Shown here: one piece after another, positions 785-28,102 of the stretch
Layout: each line of letters opens with the position of its first letter
Position numbering within the stretch: the stretch's first letter is position 1
Origin: Alphaproteobacteria bacterium
GTDB taxonomy: Bacteria; Pseudomonadota; Alphaproteobacteria; Rhodobacterales; Rhodobacteraceae
Direction: 5' to 3'
NCBI GenBank assembly: GCA_013151335.1
Contig: JAADIJ010000048.1
Coordinates: 1-32,080, forward strand
Length of the DNA stretch: 32,080 nt
The notes under the pieces: model-generated
Database searches by the model: none
What the model was told of the DNA's origin: nothing
What the model saw: only the letters and a program-made list of their open reading frames with translations
Position numbers and translations under genes: made by a program

Positions 785-2320
785 ATGCAAGAAATTATTG
801 AAAAGTTGCAAAACATCACGGATGATAAAACGCTGAACCCTGCGCAGAAAGCCCGCTACCTGTCGATCGAAGCGGAAAACATGCTGCCTTACCCTGCGCT
901 GGATGCTCAAACCGCCGAAGCCCTGAAACAACGGGTGATTTGTGACATGTATGAGGGCCACGCCCCCTATAAGCCGCGCTATGTGCTCCCCGACTATAGT
1001 ATCGTGCTAAAAAACGGCAGTGCTTACCTAGAATTACCTCCCCCCGAAACGCTGGACGAGGCGATAAATACCCTGATGATCGCCTATCATCATGTGCCAT
1101 CCGTCACAGGCATTCCGGTTTATATCGGGCAACTCGACGACCTGCTGCTGCCGTTTTGCGATGGCGTCAGCGATGATGCCCTCTACCGGAAGATCAAGCT
1201 TTTTTGGCGATATTTGGACCGCGTGCTGCCCGACGCCTTTATGCACGCCAATATCGGGCCCACCGATAACCGTGTTGCCCGCGCCATTTTGCGCGTGGAT
1301 GCAGAGCTAAAGCAGATCGCGCCGAACCTGACGTTTCTGTATGATCCAAAGATCAGCTCCGAAGACATACTGGCGATGGCGACCAATAATATCGTTGAAT
1401 GCTCTAAACCGCATATCGCCAATCATCCATTGCACGCCAAGCTTTTTGACGACCGTGGTTACGGGATTGTCAGCTGTTACAATGTGCTCCCCATCGCGGG
1501 CGGGGCCTCTACGCTCACCCGTGTGAACCTGAAAGAGGTTGCACTGCGGGCGGACAGCGTCGTGCATTTTTTTGCCGAGGTTCTACCACATTATATGGAG
1601 CTGAACTTCCGTCTAGCCAAGGTGCGTGTCGATTATCTGTTTAATAAATCAAACTTTTTCACCAGTTTTTTGGTTGAAGAAGGCTGGATAGATCCCGACC
1701 GCTTTACCGTCATGTATGGTATTTATGCTATGGCCGAGGCGGTGAATATCTTGCAGGAAAAAGAAGGCCTTGCAGGGCAATATGGCTTTGACGACGTTGC
1801 CAATAAACTCGGGTACAGGATGTCCGAAGAGATGGCGCGGATTGTGAAGAACAGGCCGCTGGAAAACGTTTGGCGCGGGCGGGCAATGCTGCACAGCCAA
1901 GCCGGAATCAGCATTGACGAAGGCGCAACGCCAGGGGTGCGTATCCCCTATGGCACTGAGCCTGATCCGGTTTCCCATGTGCAGGCGCTGGCCCCGCATC
2001 ATCAGTATTACAGCTCCGGAATTAGCGAGATTCTGACGGTGGATGAAACCATCAAGAACAACCCCGAGGCCATGCTGCAACTCTGCAAAGGTGCGCTCGA
2101 AAGCGGGTTTCGCGAATTCACCGCCAATGTTGCCAGCAACGATCTGGTGCGGGTGACGGGATATATGGTCCGGCTGTCGGATATTGCAAAATTCAAGGCC
2201 TGTAAGGGGTCACGCACCAATACAACCGCTTTGGCCTCCGAGGCCGCCGATGGCACCGGCATTCTGGACCGAAAACCGCGGGTGGTGGGTCATGAACTCT
2301 ATCCAAGCTACGGTCAATAA
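785..2320 (+). CDS. yjjI: YjjI-family glycine radical enzyme
   Basis: This 511-residue protein matches the YjjI family (DUF3029) of glycyl-radical enzymes in length and sequence. The family's reaction is not established. The likely radical site is Gly459 in RVTGYMVRL (456-464), which aligns with the RVSGYAVRF motif of pyruvate formate-lyase. A tail of about 50 residues follows, containing a second glycine motif RVVGHELYP near 499. Candidate thiyl cysteines are Cys231 (GIVSCYNVLPIAGG) and Cys206 (NIVEC). The ribosome site is weak (GGGAA). The gene overlaps yjjW by 29 bases, so the two are probably translationally coupled, and an FNR-like box lies 62 bases upstream of the start codon. I am confident of the family and have no view on the substrate. 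Confidence 0.92.
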   Translation: MQEIIEKLQNITDDKTLNPAQKARYLSIEAENMLPYPALDAQTAEALKQRVICDMYEGHAPYKPRYVLPDYSIVLKNGSAYLELPPPETLDEAINTLMIAYHHVPSVTGIPVYIGQLDDLLLPFCDGVSDDALYRKIKLFWRYLDRVLPDAFMHANIGPTDNRVARAILRVDAELKQIAPNLTFLYDPKISSEDILAMATNNIVECSKPHIANHPLHAKLFDDRGYGIVSCYNVLPIAGGASTLTRVNLKEVALRADSVVHFFAEVLPHYMELNFRLAKVRVDYLFNKSNFFTSFLVEEGWIDPDRFTVMYGIYAMAEAVNILQEKEGLAGQYGFDDVANKLGYRMSEEMARIVKNRPLENVWRGRAMLHSQAGISIDEGATPGVRIPYGTEPDPVSHVQALAPHHQYYSSGISEILTVDETIKNNPEAMLQLCKGALESGFREFTANVASNDLVRVTGYMVRLSDIAKFKACKGSRTNTTALASEAADGTGILDRKPRVVGHELYPSYGQ

Positions 2321-3158
2321 AATCCTGACATATTCCTGCGTCGACGGGCCGGGAAACCGGCTGGTGATCTTTTTGCAGGGGTGCAATTTTAGCTGCGTTA
2401 CTTGCCACAACCCCTATACGGTCGGACTGTGCAATCACTGCGGTGATTGCATTCCGGCCTGTCACGCTAACGCGCTTGAACTGATCGATGGCCAGATCGC
2501 GTTCGATCCCAGCGCCTGTGACCAGTGCGATGCCTGCCTTGATATTTGTCCGATCAGTGCCAGCCCGATGGTCCAGAATATCAGCGTTGCCGATATTCTG
2601 GAGATCGCCCGCAAAAATAAGCCGTTCCTGAGCGGCATCACCGTGTCCGGCGGCGAAGCAACATTGCAGTTAAAATTCGTTATCACCCTGTTCGAGGCGA
2701 TAAAAGCCGACTCCGAGCTGAAAAGCCTGACCTGTTTTGTCGATACAAACGGCCATTTAGGGGCACAAAGCTGGGGCCGCTTGCTGCCGGTCACTGACGG
2801 GGTCATGCTGGACATCAAGGCGTTTGACCCAGCCCTGCACCACGGGCTTACGGGGCAGAATAATGCAAAAACCCTTAAAGCGGCCAAGACTGTGCGTGAT
2901 GCGGATAAGCTCTATGAACTGCGTTTCCTCGTGATCCCCGGCAAGACAGACACGGAAGCCGAAATTGACGGACTGACTAAATTTGCTCTCTCGCTTGGCC
3001 CAGATATTCGCGTCAGACTTAACGCTTTCCAGCATCACGGCGTAAGGGCCGAGGCGCAAGGCTGGGAAACAATGACCAAAACGGGCATCGACAAAATTGC
3101 GGCGCATCTCCGGAAAGCGGGCATACCTGAGGTGATTACACCAGCCTTTTATTTGTGA
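2292..3158 (+). CDS. yjjW: YjjW-family glycine radical enzyme activase (radical SAM)
   Basis: This 288-residue protein is the cognate activating enzyme of YjjI. It cleaves S-adenosylmethionine and abstracts hydrogen from the target glycine. The radical-SAM cluster motif is CNFSCVTC (Cys31, 35, 38). An inserted ferredoxin-like domain carries two further four-cysteine sets, CNHCGDCIPAC (47-57) and CDQCDACLDIC (76-86). A TVSGGEATLQ motif follows, consistent with SAM binding. I chose the ATG at 2292 because it gives the family's usual length (about 287) and starts at the conserved N-terminus. The frame is open further upstream but there it only reads through yjjI. The overlap with yjjI supports co-translation and a one-to-one enzyme-activase pair. 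Confidence 0.92.
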   Translation: MNSIQATVNKILTYSCVDGPGNRLVIFLQGCNFSCVTCHNPYTVGLCNHCGDCIPACHANALELIDGQIAFDPSACDQCDACLDICPISASPMVQNISVADILEIARKNKPFLSGITVSGGEATLQLKFVITLFEAIKADSELKSLTCFVDTNGHLGAQSWGRLLPVTDGVMLDIKAFDPALHHGLTGQNNAKTLKAAKTVRDADKLYELRFLVIPGKTDTEAEIDGLTKFALSLGPDIRVRLNAFQHHGVRAEAQGWETMTKTGIDKIAAHLRKAGIPEVITPAFYL

Positions 3159-12174: not shown

Positions 12175-13100
12175 GTTTTGGCCTCTCGAATACGGGGGTC
12201 CATCATGGCTTGGGCTACATCCCCAATCAGAGTACCAAGCATCACCGCCAGCGCCAGCATCAGCAGGCTGCCCTGCACCACCGGATAGTCCCGCTGCCCC
12301 AGCGCCCGGATCAGCAGGGACCCAAGACCGGGGCGGGCAAAGACGAACTCGACGGTAACCGCCCCGCCAAGGATCCAGCCAATCCGAAGCGCGAGAATGG
12401 TCACCACCGGCAGCATCGCGTGTGGCAAAAGGTGGCGAAACAAAATCGCGGCCGATGAGAGCCCCTTGGCGTGCAGCAGCACCACAAAATCCTCGCGGCG
12501 CACATCGAGCAAAGCCACCCGCGTCACCCGTGCCACAAGTGCCACGCCGCCAAAGCCGATGGTCAGCACCGGCAACACCAACGAATCCCAGCCCCTGGCG
12601 CCCGAAACGGGAAACCATTGTAGCTGCACCGCGAAAAATAGGATCATCAAAAGCGCCAGCCAAAAGCCCGGCACGGTTGAGCCAAGCAGGATGAAGCCGC
12701 GCACGAATTGTTGGACCACCTTTGATCGTGTTGTTGCCGATATTGTCCCCAGAATGATGCCGACGATGCTGGAAAACGCGAATGCAAATGCCCCTAACGT
12801 CAGGCTATAGGGCAGGTTCTGCGCGATCAGATCGGCGACAGGGCGGCGCAACACGATGGCCGTGCCGAAATCGCCGTGAAACATCGCACCGACCCAGCGG
12901 AAATATTGTACGAAAATCGACTGGTCCAGGCCGTATTTGACCACAAGCGCCGCGCGGTCACTTGGCGACGAGCCGACCCGGATCAGATTATCAATCGGGT
13001 CTCCGGGGATCAGATGAACGATCATGAAAATCACCACAGAGATCGAGATCGAGACCGGGATCAGCATCAATGCCCGGAAGAATATGTAACGCAAAAGCAC
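12171..13100 (-). CDS. Peptide ABC transporter permease (DppB/OppB type)
   Basis: This 309-residue permease has the typical first helix followed by VHLIPGDPIDNLI, then transmembrane segments and the EAA region around LHAKGLSSAAILFRHLLPHA, ending GDVAQAMMDPRIREAKT. It begins with GTG at 13100 behind a GGGAGAG ribosome site. It follows the substrate-binding protein gene after a 70-base gap that contains a strong hairpin, and it couples by overlap to the DppC-type gene. Together they form the transmembrane channel. Confidence 0.92.
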   Translation of the reverse strand: MLLRYIFFRALMLIPVSISISVVIFMIVHLIPGDPIDNLIRVGSSPSDRAALVVKYGLDQSIFVQYFRWVGAMFHGDFGTAIVLRRPVADLIAQNLPYSLTLGAFAFAFSSIVGIILGTISATTRSKVVQQFVRGFILLGSTVPGFWLALLMILFFAVQLQWFPVSGARGWDSLVLPVLTIGFGGVALVARVTRVALLDVRREDFVVLLHAKGLSSAAILFRHLLPHAMLPVVTILALRIGWILGGAVTVEFVFARPGLGSLLIRALGQRDYPVVQGSLLMLALAVMLGTLIGDVAQAMMDPRIREAKT

Positions 13101-13127
13101 TCCGGGCTCTCCCTATAGGCTAGATTT

Positions 13128-13155
13128 ACCCACCCCCCGCGTCAGGGGGATGGGT
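13128..13155 (-). promoter_or_regulatory. Strong hairpin between substrate-binding protein and permease genes
   Basis: ACCCACCCCCC (13128-13138) pairs with GGGGGATGGGT (13145-13155) around a 6-base loop, with one mismatch. In the transcript it follows the binding-protein stop by about 15 bases and precedes the dppB ribosome site. Such hairpins after binding-protein genes often stop mRNA decay or reduce read-through, so the binding protein is made in excess over the membrane parts. No T-run follows, so partial attenuation or stabilisation is more likely than full termination. Confidence 0.5.
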
Positions 13156-13170
13156 CAGATAGTGTCGGGT

Positions 13171-14748
13171 CTATTTGACCACATTCATATCAAGCACCGT
13201 CTGCGAGCGGAACCGGGTTCCACGCACCTTGGCAGGCACAGTGATCCGGTCGGTATTGTAGGCGATGTTCTTGGTCGGCTGATAGATCGGCACGAACAGG
13301 TACTGCGACAGGATATATTCATGGTAGGTCTTGAAATTGGCGCTACGTTCGGCCGCAGTCTTGCTCTGTTCCATGGCGATGTCGTTCAGACGCTGGCCTT
13401 CAGGATCGTTCCACATGGAGACGTTGGGGTATCCCAAACGCTTGCCCGAAAAGAACCAGTCAAGGATATCGGCATTGTTCCAGTCATAGCTGCGAACGGC
13501 CAGCTGATGCTGGTTTGACTTGTATTCGTCGCGGATGGTGGAGCTGTCGAACACGGTGATATCGGCCTGCATCCCGATATCGGCCAGTTGGGCCTGAATT
13601 ACCTGTGTGAGTGAGGTGAATTCCGTGCCGTTCTGGGTGAACAGCTTGACCTTCAAAGGCTTGCCATCTTTCATGCGGACCCCGTCAGAGCCCATGACCC
13701 AGCCAGCCGCGTCCAGCAGCGCCTTTGCCTTTTCAGGATCGTAAGAGACATTGAGCGCGGGATTTACATTTGCGGCAGGCAGGGACGAAATCAGGAAGTT
13801 ATGCGCCGGTGCGCCCACGCCGTTATAAATTGATGCGACGATGGCCTCTTGATTGATCGCAAGCCCCGTGGCCTCACGCACCCTGATGTCGGTGAAAGGG
13901 GCCGACGTGACATTGATCGGCATATAATAGATGCCGGTTCCGGGCATCTGAATGACCGCAATGTTCTTTTCCTTCTTGAGGATTTTCAGGAAATCCGTCG
14001 GCACGCCCAGCAGCATGTCAAGACCACCGGTCTTAAGCTCTAGAAAGGCGGTGGACTGGTCGGGGATTTCACGAAAAGTAATCTGTTTCAGATACGCGGC
14101 ACCCTGATTTTTCGACAGATCCGAGGCCCAGGCATAGTCATCATTTCGCACCAGAACCGTATCAAGGCCGATGTCGAACTTCTTGAGCTTGAAGGGGCCG
14201 GTACCGACCGCAGCAGTTACACCAAAATCGTCGCCCAATTTGTCGTATGACGCTTGCCCCGGTATGCCCATGAAGGTCGAGGAAAGATTGTAAAGCAGGT
14301 TGGGCTCAGGCCGCTTCATCACGAATTTGACGGTCAGGTTGTCGATAACCTCGACCTTGTCAATCGCCGCCACAAGATAGGCGTTCTCGGTCCCGGCAAA
14401 ATCCGGAATCCAGTCGGCAACCGACTGTGCGTTGAACGGTGTGCCATCATGAAACTTGACGCCGTCCTTCAGATGGAACGTCCATGACATGCCGTCCGGG
14501 GCTTCGTCCCAAGAGGTGGCCAGATGTGGATGATAGGACTGGTCGGCATCTTGTTCGACCAGCCGGTCATAAATCAACGAGGCCGCCGAGTTGAGATTGC
14601 TCGAGGTTACCGGATTATAGGAGGTTGACCCCAGTTCATCCGCGGAAAAGGCAATCGTCGCCTCTTGCGCCATAGCGGCGGTGGCCAGGAACCCGGCCGC
14701 AAGCAGCGCTGCTCCGGATAGAAATTTGAATTTGGTCGCATATCGCAT
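13171..14748 (-). CDS. Peptide ABC transporter substrate-binding protein (SBP family 5)
   Basis: This 525-residue periplasmic binding protein has a signal peptide with a likely cut after AMA (residue 27). It then shows the family-5 layout of DppA/OppA proteins: LIYDRLVEQDADQSYHPHLA, WTFHLKDGVKFHDGTPFNAQ and VKFVMKRPEPNLLYNLSS. These proteins capture peptides, opines or nickel-like ligands and deliver them to the permeases. A GAGGAC ribosome site precedes the ATG. It is the first transporter gene, 45 bases after the broken rpiR gene. The specific ligand cannot be read, but the M81 peptidase at the operon end suggests a peptide or N-blocked amino acid. Confidence 0.92.
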   Translation of the reverse strand: MRYATKFKFLSGAALLAAGFLATAAMAQEATIAFSADELGSTSYNPVTSSNLNSAASLIYDRLVEQDADQSYHPHLATSWDEAPDGMSWTFHLKDGVKFHDGTPFNAQSVADWIPDFAGTENAYLVAAIDKVEVIDNLTVKFVMKRPEPNLLYNLSSTFMGIPGQASYDKLGDDFGVTAAVGTGPFKLKKFDIGLDTVLVRNDDYAWASDLSKNQGAAYLKQITFREIPDQSTAFLELKTGGLDMLLGVPTDFLKILKKEKNIAVIQMPGTGIYYMPINVTSAPFTDIRVREATGLAINQEAIVASIYNGVGAPAHNFLISSLPAANVNPALNVSYDPEKAKALLDAAGWVMGSDGVRMKDGKPLKVKLFTQNGTEFTSLTQVIQAQLADIGMQADITVFDSSTIRDEYKSNQHQLAVRSYDWNNADILDWFFSGKRLGYPNVSMWNDPEGQRLNDIAMEQSKTAAERSANFKTYHEYILSQYLFVPIYQPTKNIAYNTDRITVPAKVRGTRFRSQTVLDMNVVK

Positions 14749-22817: not shown

Positions 22818-23636
22818 TCAGCCCACAAACGCCTTTTCCAGCACATATTGCCCCGGCGCGCTGTTGGAGCCTTCGCTGAGACCTGCCGCCTCCATGATCG
22901 CGACCATATCGGTGTTCAGCCCCATCGAGCCGCAGATCATCACCCGATCATTGGCCGCATCAAAGCTGGGAATATCAAGATCGGCGAACAGCTCGCCCGA
23001 GGAGATCAAATCGGTGATCCGGCCCATTTTCGGCGTCTCTTCGCGGGTCGAAGTCGGGTAATACCACAGCTTGCCGCCAGCGATCTCGCTGACAATCTCG
23101 TCGGACAGGATGTCATTGACCAGTTTTTGGCTGTAATGCAGGGCCGAGGCTGACCGCGTGGTGTGGGTCAGGATCACCTTGTCAAATTTCTCGTACACTT
23201 CGGGATCGCGCACGAGCGAGGCAAACGGGGCGACCCCGGTGCCGGTCGCAATCAAAAACAGCCGTTTGCCGGGCAGCAGAGCATCCACCACCAACGAGCC
23301 GACGGGCTTAGGGCGGATGATCACCTGATCTCCGGCTTGAATATGTTGCAGCCGCGAGGTCAGCGGGCCGTCCTGCACCTTGATCGAGTAAAACTCCAAC
23401 TCCTCATCCCACGAGGGCGAGGCGATGGAATAGGCGCGCAGCAACGGTTTGCCGTTATCGCGCAAAAGGCCGATCATCAGAAACTCGCCCGAACGAAACC
23501 GCAGCGACAAAGGCCGCGTGACCCGAAACGAGAACAGGCGGTCATTCCAGTGGGTGACCGAGGTCACGGTTTGGGCATCCGGCAGACGAGTGGCGTTGCG
23601 CACAGCATCGGCGGTGATCAGGCTTTGGTCATTCAT
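22818..23636 (-). CDS. fpr: Ferredoxin--NADP(+) reductase
   Basis: This 272-residue flavoprotein has the FAD-binding RAYSIASP (67-74) and the NADP-binding TGTGVAPFASL (131-141), and ends YVLEKAFVG, typical of bacterial FPR-type reductases. It moves electrons between NADPH and ferredoxin or flavodoxin. It is the last gene of the sulfur block (68 bases after the DUF934 gene), so it may supply reduced ferredoxin to the sulfite reductase. Confidence 0.9.
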   Translation of the reverse strand: MNDQSLITADAVRNATRLPDAQTVTSVTHWNDRLFSFRVTRPLSLRFRSGEFLMIGLLRDNGKPLLRAYSIASPSWDEELEFYSIKVQDGPLTSRLQHIQAGDQVIIRPKPVGSLVVDALLPGKRLFLIATGTGVAPFASLVRDPEVYEKFDKVILTHTTRSASALHYSQKLVNDILSDEIVSEIAGGKLWYYPTSTREETPKMGRITDLISSGELFADLDIPSFDAANDRVMICGSMGLNTDMVAIMEAAGLSEGSNSAPGQYVLEKAFVG

Positions 23637-23704: not shown

Positions 23705-24136
23705 TCAGGCAAATTGGCGCAAGCGGTTTTGATAGTCATGCTCGCGCCAATCGGCACGCGCGCGCCAGTGCTCCTGAGGTTGGCGCTTGGCCATCGCGTC
23801 GGGGATTTCAACCTCGTCAAAGCCACATCGGCGCGCCATCGCGTATTGATCCGACAACAGCGGGCCGGACGCGCGCAGTCGCCCCTGAAACCCCAATAGG
23901 CGCAATCGGCGCGCTTGGGAAAACCCGCGCCCGTCCGAAAATACCGGAAACGCCACCCGGATCAGGTCGATCCGGTCGAGATATGGCGCAAGCTCGGTCA
24001 CGTCAAAATCATTGGCGATATCGAGGGCAAAACCGTTGGGGCTTGCGCCAATGGTCGCCTCAAGGGCATCGGTGTCGTGAAACCCGAAGCCCCAATCCTC
24101 AGGGGCAAAGCCCTGATCCGTTACCAAAATGCTCAT
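23705..24136 (-). CDS. DUF934 family protein (sulfite reductase neighbourhood)
   Basis: This 143-residue protein belongs to DUF934, which lies next to sulfite reductase genes across alphaproteobacteria. Typical stretches are IRVAFPVFSDGRGFSQARRL and SDQYAMARRCGFDEVEIPD. It is thought to act with CysI/CysH, but no reaction is established. Its ATG overlaps the CysH stop by four bases. Confidence 0.88.
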   Translation of the reverse strand: MSILVTDQGFAPEDWGFGFHDTDALEATIGASPNGFALDIANDFDVTELAPYLDRIDLIRVAFPVFSDGRGFSQARRLRLLGFQGRLRASGPLLSDQYAMARRCGFDEVEIPDAMAKRQPQEHWRARADWREHDYQNRLRQFA

Positions 24137-24879
24137 GCCGCGTCCTTCTCGGGTCGTGTCACGCCATTTTCATCGAAATGGATGCCACATTCAATTTTGT
24201 CGGTGTTGCGCCAACGCCCCGCGCGGATGTCCTCGCCGAGATTAACTTGCGTTGTGCAAGGCGCGCAGCCGATTGAGGGATAGCCCTTGGCCACCAGCGG
24301 ATGACGCGGCAGGTTGTTGTTGGCGATGTAGTCCTCAAGATCGTCGCGGCCCCAATGAGCCAGCGGGTTGATCTTGATCCGCTCGGCGTTCTCAGCCTCG
24401 AAAAACTCGATTTTCTGGCGCAGACCGCCCTGATACCGTTTGCGTCCGGTGACCCACGCGTCAAAACCGCTGAGGCCCTTTTGCAGCGGCTCGATCTTGC
24501 GCAAATGGCAGCAGGCGTCGGGATCGAAATGGCGCAACAGGTTGTCGGGATCGCGCTCGAATATCTGGTCTCGCGGGGTTGTCAGGCGACGAATATCGCT
24601 CAGCCCGAAGGCTTCCGCCAGCGTTTCCTGATAGTGCAGGGTCTCGGCAAACAGCAGTTCGGTGTCGATAAACAAGACCGGCGTGGTGCGGTCCATGATC
24701 GAAATCAGGTGCAGCAGTACGACCGATTCCGCGCCAAATGACGAGACCAGCGCGATTTTTCCCAACATCGGATCGGCCAGCGCATGGCTGAGCACCGACA
24801 CCGCGCCGTGATTGCGATAGCGCGCGTTAAGATCGGCAATGCGTTGACTGATCGGGGCAAGTGGAGCTTCAAGCGGCAT
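24133..24879 (-). CDS. cysH: Phosphoadenylyl/adenylyl-sulfate reductase
   Basis: This 248-residue enzyme reduces activated sulfate to sulfite with thioredoxin or similar. The PP-loop SSFGAES is at 46-52. Cys123-Cys124 and Cys205/Cys208 (GCAPC) are the four ligands of a [4Fe-4S] cluster, which indicates the APS-type (assimilatory, plant-like) reductase. The catalytic cysteine is in ECGIH (Cys231). I chose the ATG at 24879, which overlaps the sulfite reductase stop by 11 bases; the frame is open to 24909 inside that gene. Confidence 0.92.
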   Translation of the reverse strand: MPLEAPLAPISQRIADLNARYRNHGAVSVLSHALADPMLGKIALVSSFGAESVVLLHLISIMDRTTPVLFIDTELLFAETLHYQETLAEAFGLSDIRRLTTPRDQIFERDPDNLLRHFDPDACCHLRKIEPLQKGLSGFDAWVTGRKRYQGGLRQKIEFFEAENAERIKINPLAHWGRDDLEDYIANNNLPRHPLVAKGYPSIGCAPCTTQVNLGEDIRAGRWRNTDKIECGIHFDENGVTRPEKDAA

Positions 24880-26539
24880 TGGTTCGGGCCTCCTGCCCAT
24901 AAAGCGCATGTTTGAATGGTGTCATTCCAAGTCGTTGAAAAAGAGCACGAAAACTCTCTGATGGGTCGCCTCTGAGATCAAGATAGGTGTCGATCAGGGT
25001 CTCAATCGCCGGCAATATCGCCTGCGCCGAGAACCCCGGTCCGACCGGTTTGCCAATCGCCGCATCCTCGGAACCATCGCCGCCAAGCGTGATCTGATAG
25101 CTTTCAACCCCGGCTTTTTCCAAGCCTAAAATCCCGATATGACCCACATGATGATGCCCGCAGGCATTGATGCAGCCAGAGATTTTAATCTTGAGCGGCC
25201 CGATATCACGCTCGAGCTTCAGCGCGTCAAACCTGTTGGCGATGTCTTGGGCCACCGGAATGGAGCGCGCGGTGGCCAGATCGCAATAATCCATACCGGG
25301 GCAGGCGATAATATCCGAGATCAGGCCGATATTGGCCGTGGCCAGACCCGCCTCTTTCAGCGTCGCGTGTACCGTCTTGAGATCGGATTTGGCCACATGC
25401 GGCAAAACGATGTTCTGCTCGTGGCTAAAGCGCAGATCGTCATAGGAATAGGTCTTGGCGAGCTTTGCGATTACACGCATTTGCGCCGAACTGATATCGC
25501 CGGGCGTGTCGCCATGTTTTTTGAGCGAGACCGACACAATCGCATAATCGGGGTTCTTATGCTGTGCGGTATTGGTGTCGACGAAGGAGCGGAAAATTGG
25601 GTCGCTGGCAAGGGTCGCCTCAAAACCGCCACTGCCGCTGGATTTATAGGCGGGTGGGGTGAAATTACGTTCAATCTCGGCCAGCAAGACCTGATCCGCC
25701 CCGTCAAAATACGCCGACTGCTCCAAGAAACGTTGCTCGACCATAGCGCGGATGGTTTCGATCTTGTGCTCATGCACCGTGATTTTGATGCGGGCTTTAT
25801 ATTTGTTGTCGCGACGTCCGATCTGGTTGTAAACGGCCAGAACCGCCTCGATATAGGGCAGCAAATCCGCTTGGGGCAGAAACTCGCGGATCAGACGCGC
25901 GATCATCGGGGTGCGGCCCAGACCGCCTCCGATCAGAACGCGGTAGCCGGGCGCGCCGCTGGCGTTTCTCACCAGTTGCAGGCCAATGTCATGGACCTTG
26001 ATAACCGCGCGGTCGTGATCCGAACCGGTTACGGCGAATTTGAATTTGCGCGGCAGAAAGGCAAACTCCGGATGGTCAGCAAACCACTGGCGGATCAGCT
26101 CGGCCGTGGGGCGGGGATCAGCGATTTCGTCAGCCGCCGCTCCGGCGAAATGATCGGCGGTAACCGCGCGTACGCAATTACCCGAGGTTTGCGTCGCATG
26201 CATATCCACCGCCGCCAGCGCGTCGAGAATATCGGGAACGTCGCAGAGTTTGGGCCAGTTGAACTGGATATTTTGACGGGTGGTGATATGGCCGTAGCCC
26301 TCATCCCAACGATCCGCGATATCGGCCAGCGCGTTCATTTGGCGACTATTAAGCGCGCCATAAGGCACCGCCACGCGCAGCATATAGGCGTGCAGTTGCA
26401 AATAAAGCCCGTTCATCAGGCGCAAAGGGCGAAACTCGTCCTCGGTCAGCGCGCCGCTGATGCGGCGAGCGACTTGATCGCGAAACTGCTGGTTGCGGCG
26501 GGTCAGAAACGCGCGGTCAAAATCGCTATAACGATACAT
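24869..26539 (-). CDS. cysI: Sulfite (nitrite/sulfite) reductase hemoprotein
   Basis: This 556-residue enzyme reduces sulfite to sulfide with six electrons. The [4Fe-4S]-siroheme ligands are in CPGMDYC (Cys413, Cys419) and CINAC (Cys456, Cys460). The first half domain has the GYGHITTRQNIQF stretch and the NCVRAVTADHFAG loop. The length matches ferredoxin-dependent assimilatory enzymes. It overlaps the upstream DUF2849 stop by one base (TAATG) and CysH downstream. Siroheme must come from elsewhere because no siroheme synthase gene is in this cluster. Confidence 0.93.
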   Translation of the reverse strand: MYRYSDFDRAFLTRRNQQFRDQVARRISGALTEDEFRPLRLMNGLYLQLHAYMLRVAVPYGALNSRQMNALADIADRWDEGYGHITTRQNIQFNWPKLCDVPDILDALAAVDMHATQTSGNCVRAVTADHFAGAAADEIADPRPTAELIRQWFADHPEFAFLPRKFKFAVTGSDHDRAVIKVHDIGLQLVRNASGAPGYRVLIGGGLGRTPMIARLIREFLPQADLLPYIEAVLAVYNQIGRRDNKYKARIKITVHEHKIETIRAMVEQRFLEQSAYFDGADQVLLAEIERNFTPPAYKSSGSGGFEATLASDPIFRSFVDTNTAQHKNPDYAIVSVSLKKHGDTPGDISSAQMRVIAKLAKTYSYDDLRFSHEQNIVLPHVAKSDLKTVHATLKEAGLATANIGLISDIIACPGMDYCDLATARSIPVAQDIANRFDALKLERDIGPLKIKISGCINACGHHHVGHIGILGLEKAGVESYQITLGGDGSEDAAIGKPVGPGFSAQAILPAIETLIDTYLDLRGDPSESFRALFQRLGMTPFKHALYGQEARTNAA

Positions 26540-26871
26540 TATTCACCTCGTAGCCGTGCTGCATCGGCCTGTTTGCCTAAAAACCGGTTTGAAGGACCGT
26601 TGGCGCGAAACCGCTCGCGCATATGTGTCGGTTCGGGAACGCCGTTTTGGCCGATGCGGGCATTGGTCAAGAACGCGCTAACGATTTGATTCTGTTGGGT
26701 TTCTGCCTGTGCCGAGGCCTCGTTCGCCGCCACGTCATTTGTAAACAGCTTCGCGTTGGCAAAGGCTTTGACCCATTGCCCCTCGGCGGACAGATAGACC
26801 ACTTCGCCGTTGATCAGGTCATTGGCGGTCAGAACTTTGGACTGAAATCCAATGTGGGTTGGCTGTGCCAT
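26539..26871 (-). CDS. DUF2849 family protein
   Basis: This 110-residue protein belongs to DUF2849, found in alphaproteobacteria directly upstream of sulfite reductase. It starts FQSKVLTANDLINGEVVYLS and lacks membrane helices or obvious catalytic residues. An AGAGGAAG ribosome site precedes the ATG. Its role is unknown. The one-base overlap with cysI implies co-expression and perhaps a stable complex. Confidence 0.88.
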   Translation of the reverse strand: MAQPTHIGFQSKVLTANDLINGEVVYLSAEGQWVKAFANAKLFTNDVAANEASAQAETQQNQIVSAFLTNARIGQNGVPEPTHMRERFRANGPSNRFLGKQADAARLRGE

Positions 26872-26911: not shown

Positions 26912-27484
26912 TCATGCCGCCAATTTGCGCGCACCCACCGACAGCAATCCTGCCGCGTCAAGCTTGCTCCAAAGAGGCCGCAACAGCGCCACCGGCACGT
27001 TGGGCAGACGGATTGAAACGCCTGCGGTGAGACGAATAGTGGAGTGGCCAAAAACCTCGGCCACATCGGCAATGAGGCGAAGCTGCGCAGGCCTGATCGC
27101 CGATTGCAGCGCGATCACCACCAGACGATAGCCGTTGCGGGCATGGGCGACGGTGTAGCCATCGATGAAAGCGCGAAACTCGGAGTTTTGGGCATAGGTC
27201 AGATTATAGCGATCTTGCGGCAGATCAATGAGGCGCGCGGGGGTCTCGATCGGTTGCGCAATGCTGTCGCGTTCGGCACGGCTGATCGGGGTGTCAAACA
27301 GCACGCCTCCGCCGGGAGTGAAGCGCACGTCGCCGCGCACATCGCTCAGCGTGGCAATCGCGCGCAAGCTTTGCGGAGACTGAATGTCGCTTTCGCTGCG
27401 AATGTTGATCTCTGGGCTGAGGATTTGATCCTTGCTGGGCACGACATGAAGCGTGGCGGGCTGGCCTCGGGTTTCGATCTGCAT
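26912..27484 (-). CDS. Cysteine-free sulfite-reductase-like half-domain protein
   Basis: This 190-residue protein is the first gene of the sulfur operon. The C-terminal half (RLVVIALQSAIRPAQLRLIA to GHSTIRLTAGVSIRLPNVPV) resembles the ferredoxin-like half domain of nitrite/sulfite reductases. An earlier LRAIATLSDVRGDVRFTPGG may be a second copy. It has no cysteine at all, so it cannot carry the siroheme/iron-sulfur ligands. The usual gene here in relatives is cysG. It could be an accessory subunit, a structural partner of CysI or an evolved remnant. The start at 27484 has an AGGAGA site and the gene is undamaged. Confidence 0.7.
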   Translation of the reverse strand: MQIETRGQPATLHVVPSKDQILSPEINIRSESDIQSPQSLRAIATLSDVRGDVRFTPGGGVLFDTPISRAERDSIAQPIETPARLIDLPQDRYNLTYAQNSEFRAFIDGYTVAHARNGYRLVVIALQSAIRPAQLRLIADVAEVFGHSTIRLTAGVSIRLPNVPVALLRPLWSKLDAAGLLSVGARKLAA

Positions 27485-27535: not shown

Positions 27536-27589
27536 AGAATAATATTCTCGAAAAATTGCTATACCCCGCTTGAAATAAGAAATATGTTC
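27536..27589. promoter_or_regulatory. Two candidate Lrp-type operators, 42 bp apart
   Basis: A perfect palindrome AGAATAATATTCT (27536-27548) and a second GAA-N5-TTC site GAAATATGTTC (27579-27589) lie in the 156-base gap between the sulfur operon and lrp. The first agrees with the Lrp consensus (YAGHAWATTWTDCTR) at 13 of 15 positions. The GAA-N5-TTC sites have centres at 27542 and 27584, which are 42 bp, four helical turns, apart. This suits cooperative binding of a multimeric Lrp protein controlling both genes. Confidence 0.5.
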
Positions 27590-27640: not shown

Positions 27641-28102
27641 ATGTCAGCCCGCATCGACGCAATTGACCGGAAAATCCTTTTCGAGCTTCAGCGCGACGCC
27701 AGCCAATCTTTGGACGAAATCGCCCGAAAAACCGGCTCTTCCAAGACGCCGGTGTGGAATCGCATCCGCAAATTGCGCAAGGCCGGGGTGATCCGGCAGC
27801 AAACCGTGCTGCTGGATCCCGAGGCTTTGGGGCTGGAGGCGTGCTTTTTTGTTTTGGTGCGCACATCGGAGCATGACGCCGAGTGGCAGGGGCGGTTTTT
27901 GCGCAGTCTGCTCGCGCGCCCCGAGGTGCAAGAGGCGCACCGTCTGGCCGGGGACATCGACTATATTCTCAAGGTCAGGGTCGAAAACGCCAAGGCCTAT
28001 GACATCTTTTATCAGGCGCTGATTGCCGAGGTGAAGATTTTCAACGTCACAGCACTTTTGTCGATGGAAGAGATCAAATCAACCACCGTGCTGGCGGTTT
28101 GA
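27641..28102 (+). CDS. Lrp/AsnC family transcriptional regulator
   Basis: This 153-residue protein has an N-terminal winged HTH (IDAIDRKILFELQRDASQSL, then SSKTPVWNRIRKLRKAGVI) and a C-terminal RAM ligand-binding domain (QEAHRLAGDIDYILKVRVEN). I chose the ATG at 27641 because it gives the conserved N-terminus; an earlier in-frame ATG near 27584 would extend into the operator region. It is divergent from the sulfur operon and most likely regulates it in response to an amino acid or sulfur metabolite. Effector not known. Confidence 0.9.
   Translation: MSARIDAIDRKILFELQRDASQSLDEIARKTGSSKTPVWNRIRKLRKAGVIRQQTVLLDPEALGLEACFFVLVRTSEHDAEWQGRFLRSLLARPEVQEAHRLAGDIDYILKVRVENAKAYDIFYQALIAEVKIFNVTALLSMEEIKSTTVLAV

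Follow-up and report, generated by a model that had tools for sequence, protein, structure and literature searches.

What is the small, cysteine-free protein encoded at the head of a cys gene block in a member of the Rhodobacteraceae, at a place that relatives often give to siroheme synthase? The window analysed here, positions 1-32,080 of contig JAADIJ010000048.1 in assembly GCA_013151335.1, holds at 26912-27484 on the reverse strand an open reading frame for 190 residues, which we call X190; it starts with ATG and has an AGGAG-like site ahead of it. An intact 190-residue protein between lrp and DUF2849 had been described in an earlier note on this DNA, and the ORF call confirms it at these coordinates. 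X190 heads a block that continues on the same strand with DUF2849 (26539-26871; PF11011, E 5.1e-27), cysI (24869-26539; a full-length siroheme/4Fe-4S sulfite reductase with PF01077, PF03460 and the conserved cysteines present), cysH (24133-24909; APS/PAPS reductase, PF01507, E 4.2e-41), DUF934 (23705-24136; PF06073, E 1.4e-25) and a ferredoxin/flavodoxin-NADP reductase-like gene (22818-23636; PF00970 and PF00175) that we take to be fpr. It is divergent from a gene for an lrp/AsnC-type regulator (27641-28102, forward strand; PF13412, PF13404 and PF01037), and this regulator is the divergent neighbour of X190 in all ten genomes of the genus; DUF2849 was detected beside X190 in five of the ten by tblastn synteny.

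The absence of siroheme synthase from this slot was noticed earlier and is confirmed, the lrp-DUF2849 position being occupied by X190. The accompanying claim that cysG usually lies between lrp and DUF2849 is fair but loose: DUF2849 was found in 57 genomes of a 61-genome family sample, and cysG (counted as a cysG_Nterm match at E <= 1e-20) lay within 2.5 kb of it in 27 of the 57, only elsewhere in 14 and gave no match in 16. Twenty of the 29 slots in other genera that have no adjacent cysG were retrieved: eight hold the methyltransferase half only, one a partial match and nine no cysG match (two CysG queries gave nothing in tblastn at E 1e-5), and two are without the standard locus. The eight loci in which the methyltransferase (cobA-like) half of CysG stands alone between lrp and DUF2849 are L195, L198, L203, L205, L208, L209, L211 and L212. 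Within the genus, a cysG_Nterm match above the cut-off is present in every one of the ten genomes, and a search for cysG elsewhere, which the earlier note had recommended, located a full cysG near dsrA: the two matches share a contig in all ten genomes and lie 2.2-2.9 kb apart (in the window genome, G000:C64, L089). The missing neighbour therefore does not imply loss of siroheme synthesis, and we reject such a loss for the genus; routes of siroheme synthesis are treated in PMC7242693. X190 occupies the place behind lrp that CysG has in relatives such as G020, but it belongs to a different protein family, and neither the precorrin-2 dehydrogenase nor the methyltransferase domain of CysG was found in it by Pfam and NCBIfam scans. 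As a side observation, the cobA/cysG methyltransferase model matches CysG and one small fragment in the whole genome of the window and has three to six matches in each of its nine relatives; the window genome may lack a cobalamin pathway.

From what, then, is X190 derived? A single family, NIR_SIR_ferr (PF03460), was returned by the Pfam scan (42 bits against a gathering cut-off of 24, E 7.6e-11); at E <= 1e-3 its match covers only the C-terminal unit of the window protein (residues 128-178), and PF03460 is matched at that threshold in all ten orthologues. The profile comparison with CysI that the earlier note had called for aligned X190 residues 79-184 (26933-27250, reverse strand) with CysI residues 292-403, including the linker before half-domain 2 (probability 99, E 8.8e-18, 28% identity over 106 columns), and on this alignment X190 is most likely a CysI-derived paralogue. 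When the loci were searched with the X190 profile, CysI frames scored up to 3.6e-22, those of NirB lay between 1.4e-5 and 3.8e-4, and nothing from Dsr was matched at E 1e-3. An NCBIfam scan of the window protein gave weak matches only, to CobG, NirA, NirB and thiolase models. The likeness to the precorrin-3B synthase CobG (TIGR02435) covers one half-domain, X190 residues 126-181 (E 9.7e-4), but at 18.2 bits it lies far below the NCBIfam cut-off of 234.8, and none of the ten genus genomes has a TIGR02435 match above that cut-off. An origin from CobG or NirB is rejected because CysI scores far better, and an origin from Dsr because no Dsr frame among the loci searched was matched at E 1e-3; DsrA and DsrB share with X190 a related half-domain fold (Z 5.2-5.9 to the B chains among the matches listed), but no sequence match at that threshold among those loci. 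A tree of the C-terminal half-domain, in which 6 of 56 inner branches are starred, puts X190 on the CysI side; it was made by a quick method, long branches meet in it and the CysI rows of G001, G002 and G006 were left out, and we take from it that the relationship is to CysI rather than NirB and draw nothing beyond.

The ferredoxin-like half-domain fold proposed earlier reappears, twice over, in an AlphaFold model of X190 built from ten sequences (pLDDT 79, pTM 0.71; residues 1-30 unreliable). The model consists of two beta-alpha-beta-beta-alpha units, residues 33-73 and 111-177. The N-terminal, half-domain-like unit (27266-27388, reverse strand) carries the motif RFTPGGGV and is weak by sequence; the C-terminal ferredoxin-like half-domain (26954-27154, reverse strand), with the motif IRLTxxVSIRLPNVP, coincides with the PF03460 match and is related to the second half-domain of CysI at E 1.5e-13. 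VIA-align overlays 130 residues of X190 (between 30 and 188) on residues 100-414 of Mycobacterium tuberculosis NirA (Z 11.2) and 124 residues on residues 85-424 of SiRHP (Z 11.2), with unrelated folds beginning at Z 4.5. The Z 11.2 overlays, on 1zj8 and 6c3m, start at model residue 29-32 and cover both halves of X190, so that the suggested AlphaFold comparison returned both half-domains of a sulfite/nitrite reductase; the segments covered are consistent with domain 1 of these enzymes, the domain that intervenes being skipped. As modelled, X190 is two half-domains packed as domain 1 of the reductases, where support for the N-terminal unit comes mostly from the model and the second unit alone is clear by sequence. 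A Foldseek search with the model likewise gave nitrite and sulfite reductases as best matches, at E 8.9e-3 or worse, with no match at E <= 1e-3.

How the two-unit layout arose can be asked of the first unit. An origin by duplication and fusion is described for the assimilatory reductases themselves in PMC10229431. A duplication of the half-domain, which had been put forward as one explanation of X190, is weakly supported, in that the first unit resembles its own second unit most closely (E 7.7e-4, probability only 10%), against E 0.01 for half-domain 2 of CysI and E 0.064 for half-domain 1. The alternative is an internal deletion within a copy of cysI.

Whatever its route, X190 has parted from the chemistry of its parent. 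It shares with the CysI/NirA of the Rhodobacteraceae (24869-26539 in the window) the homologous linker and second half-domain, an operon and, in the model, both half-domains in identical order; unlike that enzyme it has 190 rather than 556 residues and is without the NIR_SIR domain, the 4Fe-4S cysteines and the TTRQN and QN motifs. CysI residues Cys413, Cys419, Cys456 and Cys460 are invariant in 12 aligned CysI proteins, seven of them from the genus, and so are Thr86, Thr87, Arg88, Gln89 and Asn90 (TTRQN) and Gln375-Asn376, motifs that presumably contact siroheme. Facing Gln375-Asn376 is Val156-Ser157, invariant in ten X190 proteins; facing TTRQN is TPGGG in seven of the ten, TPGAG in two and MLGGG in one, a pairing taken from a weak alignment. 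Both motifs are absent from all ten X190 proteins, and the 4Fe-4S domain PF01077 was not found in the window X190 at E <= 10, which sets it outside the CysI/NirA family. As the earlier note had observed, the window protein contains no cysteine; the same holds for nine of the ten orthologues, and that of G007 carries one non-conserved cysteine. The further claim that X190 cannot bind the cofactors stands, by sequence, for a cysteine-ligated 4Fe-4S cluster, and as regards siroheme, whose presumed motifs are replaced, X190 likely does not bind it.

Could X190 nonetheless carry siroheme or sirohydrochlorin from CysG to the apo-reductases? Domain 1 lines the siroheme pocket in reductases, X190 keeps Arg54 and Thr56 (nine of ten orthologues each) and Arg151 and Thr153 (all ten), and the slot in relatives often holds tetrapyrrole genes (cysG in 27 of 57; the methyltransferase only in 8 of 20). 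However, the reductase motif residues beside these kept positions are replaced, other dsr-bearing genomes of the family have no X190 match at E <= 1e-15, and we consider a carrier decidedly unlikely.

X190 is a real gene under purifying selection. Its frame is open in all ten genus genomes; across the orthologue alignment, identity to the window protein is 46-55%, with 48 invariant columns, and the invariant arginines are Arg72, Arg92, Arg120, Arg151, Arg159 and Arg169. In the five closest pairs, those more than 60% identical, dN/dS is 0.20-0.27; the G002/G008 pair gives 0.204 at a dS of 0.21, and the other four, at dS 1.1-1.5, give rougher estimates. A decaying, functionless relic of a duplicated cysI would suit the loss of most of the enzyme and the G002/G008 dN of 0.042, which is above those of lrp (0.009), cysI (0.021, first 340 codons) and fpr (0.023). 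Such a relic would hardly keep ten open frames, a dN/dS in this range and 48 invariant residues at so low an identity, nor persist in G004 and G009, whose loci are rearranged as described below. We regard the relic as very improbable, and the ten open orthologues and their dN/dS likewise disfavour a chance open reading frame.

How far does the gene extend? A search of 394 family genomes, in which at most eight candidates per genome were scored and distant relatives could escape, gave matches at E <= 1e-15 in ten genomes, two of them sampled genus members with the short protein; in the eight others, among 392 genomes outside the genus, the matching frames have 559-632 residues and so the size of CysI. 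The same search hit G006 a second time, in a 700-residue frame. When two X190 peptide patterns were run against the GTDB species collection, a scan that distant relatives could also escape, nine loci came up, all in metagenome-assembled genomes, and these are the other nine genus genomes. Neither the family search (E <= 1e-15) nor the two-pattern GTDB scan returned a short X190 relative outside the genus, and at the sensitivity of these searches X190 is restricted to one genus. In a search of the class for other free-standing half-domain proteins, PF03460 was matched at E <= 1e-4 in 75 of 142 genomes, where the matches listed reach only E 5.3e-13 and proteins as weak as X190 fall outside them; one short PF03460 frame was noticed among the matches listed, G470:C162, of 185 residues and running off the contig end, beside an 806-residue frame that resembles cobN by eye. 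Searches of an open-licence library listed no paper about a comparable free-standing protein.

With whom might X190 work? The earlier note had suggested an accessory or structural subunit of CysI, which would dock on CysI or its electron donor and modulate sulfite reduction. In keeping with this, X190 derives from CysI and heads or adjoins the cysI-holding block in eight of the ten genomes (the G008 contig ends inside cysI), and in G001, G002 and G008, where DUF2849 was not detected, it lies directly upstream of cysI. Two genomes weaken the suggestion. G004 carries lrp, X190 and fpr, in this order, on a 223-kb contig (L038, G004:C21:158000-175000), without cysI, cysH, DUF2849 or DUF934 between X190 and fpr; in this genome, which is 99% complete, the NIR_SIR matches are dsrA and dsrB only, with no CysI, and there is no CysH (PAPS_reduct) match; this dsr organism has apparently lost the assimilatory reduction of sulfate. 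G009 retains X190 and lrp, the block from fpr to DUF2849 is absent there and a cysI block is found on another contig, although this genome is 83% complete and 3% contaminated and its cysI block might be foreign. Since X190 is kept without CysI and CysH in G004 and apart from cysI in G009, it is unlikely to be an obligate CysI subunit. CysI itself is full length, and a putative orthologue, SPO2634 of Ruegeria pomeroyi, is a single-subunit, ferredoxin-dependent sulfite reductase according to the text of PMC13188885, whose Fig. 3 legend gives ferredoxin to Sir1 instead. We consider an accessory or structural subunit of CysI unlikely. A whole-length model matched DsrA from end to end in the two genus genomes where it was applied, and CysI is full length in seven aligned genus copies; X190 therefore replaces no missing domain, and we reject that possibility.

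The divergent promoter region offers another candidate partner. A perfect palindrome, AGAATAATATTCT, lies there at 27536-27548; it fits a block common to other Rhodobacteraceae cys loci and is a possible Lrp operator. Of 22 intergenic regions at the lrp slot (ten from the genus and 12 chosen from 22 other-genus loci), 20 contain a GAA-(A/T)-TTCTA-like block at 91-99 bases from the lrp end, against a shuffled mean of 0.1, the pattern having been fitted after the sequences were inspected; a stricter pattern finds 17 of 22 and misses the window's own site, and a third, for a second block, finds 13 of 22. The block is present in genera with and without X190, and X190 appears to sit behind an inherited cys promoter. 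X190 might be a regulatory partner of the divergent Lrp, sensing a sulfur oxyanion or a tetrapyrrole and altering how Lrp acts at the cys promoter, in favour of which stand the operator-like block, the invariant arginines and the adjoining lrp in ten of ten genomes, including G004 and G009 with most of the operon gone. Yet the same lrp and block occur in other genera without X190, the lrp-X190 pairing may be simple inheritance, and we think such a partnership improbable. Siroheme decarboxylases of the AsnC family are the subject of PMC4835899.

A third candidate is the dissimilatory-type sulfite reductase DsrAB, which presumably runs in reverse here. The NCBIfam model detects dsrA in all ten genus genomes, and dsrB is present in all eight tested with a dsrB model; in G002 and G008, dsrA is accompanied by another NIR_SIR match. 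X190 is retained in G004, where neither CysI nor CysH was found, so its partner cannot be CysI only, and DsrAB, as a siroheme enzyme in all ten genomes, becomes the first candidate. Retention in a member without CysI also makes a new, non-catalytic job probable. We tentatively propose, with clearly less than even confidence, that X190 is a CysI-derived, non-catalytic pseudo-enzyme of reductase domain 1 that most likely acts on DsrAB, and on CysI where present. In this proposal, a cysI paralogue would have been reduced to the two ferredoxin-like half-domains of domain 1, its 4Fe-4S domains gone. Its product, expressed from the old cys promoter, would do no redox chemistry and would work by binding another protein of siroheme or sulfite metabolism, helping in the assembly, loading or tuning of DsrAB, and also of CysI in genomes that have it, by means of a surface like that of domain 1 that bears the six invariant arginines. 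We rank the partners DsrAB first, CysI second and Lrp third, a ranking that could well be wrong. Indeed, of the 27 genomes with dsrA among 394 in the family, two belong to the genus, and the 25 outside it gave no X190 match at E <= 1e-15, which argues that DsrAB does not generally need X190; moreover, X190 is located in the cys locus and not in the dsr cluster, and that it accompanies DsrAB in a single genus may reflect nothing more than shared ancestry. A bolder version, which we hold to be rather doubtful, is that a free-standing domain 1, born from cysI in a slot that is often that of cysG, became in one lineage a dedicated non-catalytic partner that links the dissimilatory sulfur metabolism of Dsr with the promoter of the assimilatory cys genes.

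Sulfite reductases are large siroheme/Fe-S enzymes, and X190 would be, to our knowledge, the first sulfite-reductase pseudo-enzyme. If our proposal is true, the sulfite-reductase scaffold can serve anew in binding or regulation and be kept without the parent enzyme. As far as we know, the delivery of siroheme to its enzymes is poorly understood, and X190 is a candidate for studying it. X190 also suggests how a cysG near dsrA can free the cys slot for a new gene.

Some minor observations may be recorded. The dsrA contig of the window genome holds frames that by eye resemble dsrK and dsrM. In G009 the dsrA match is split into two overlapping matches, with a 251-residue frame (L216, G009:C162, about 12523-13186), perhaps an assembly error. 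Within the window, at 785-3158, a 511-residue frame resembling a YjjI-type glycyl-radical protein is followed by a radical-SAM activase-like frame, both named by eye.
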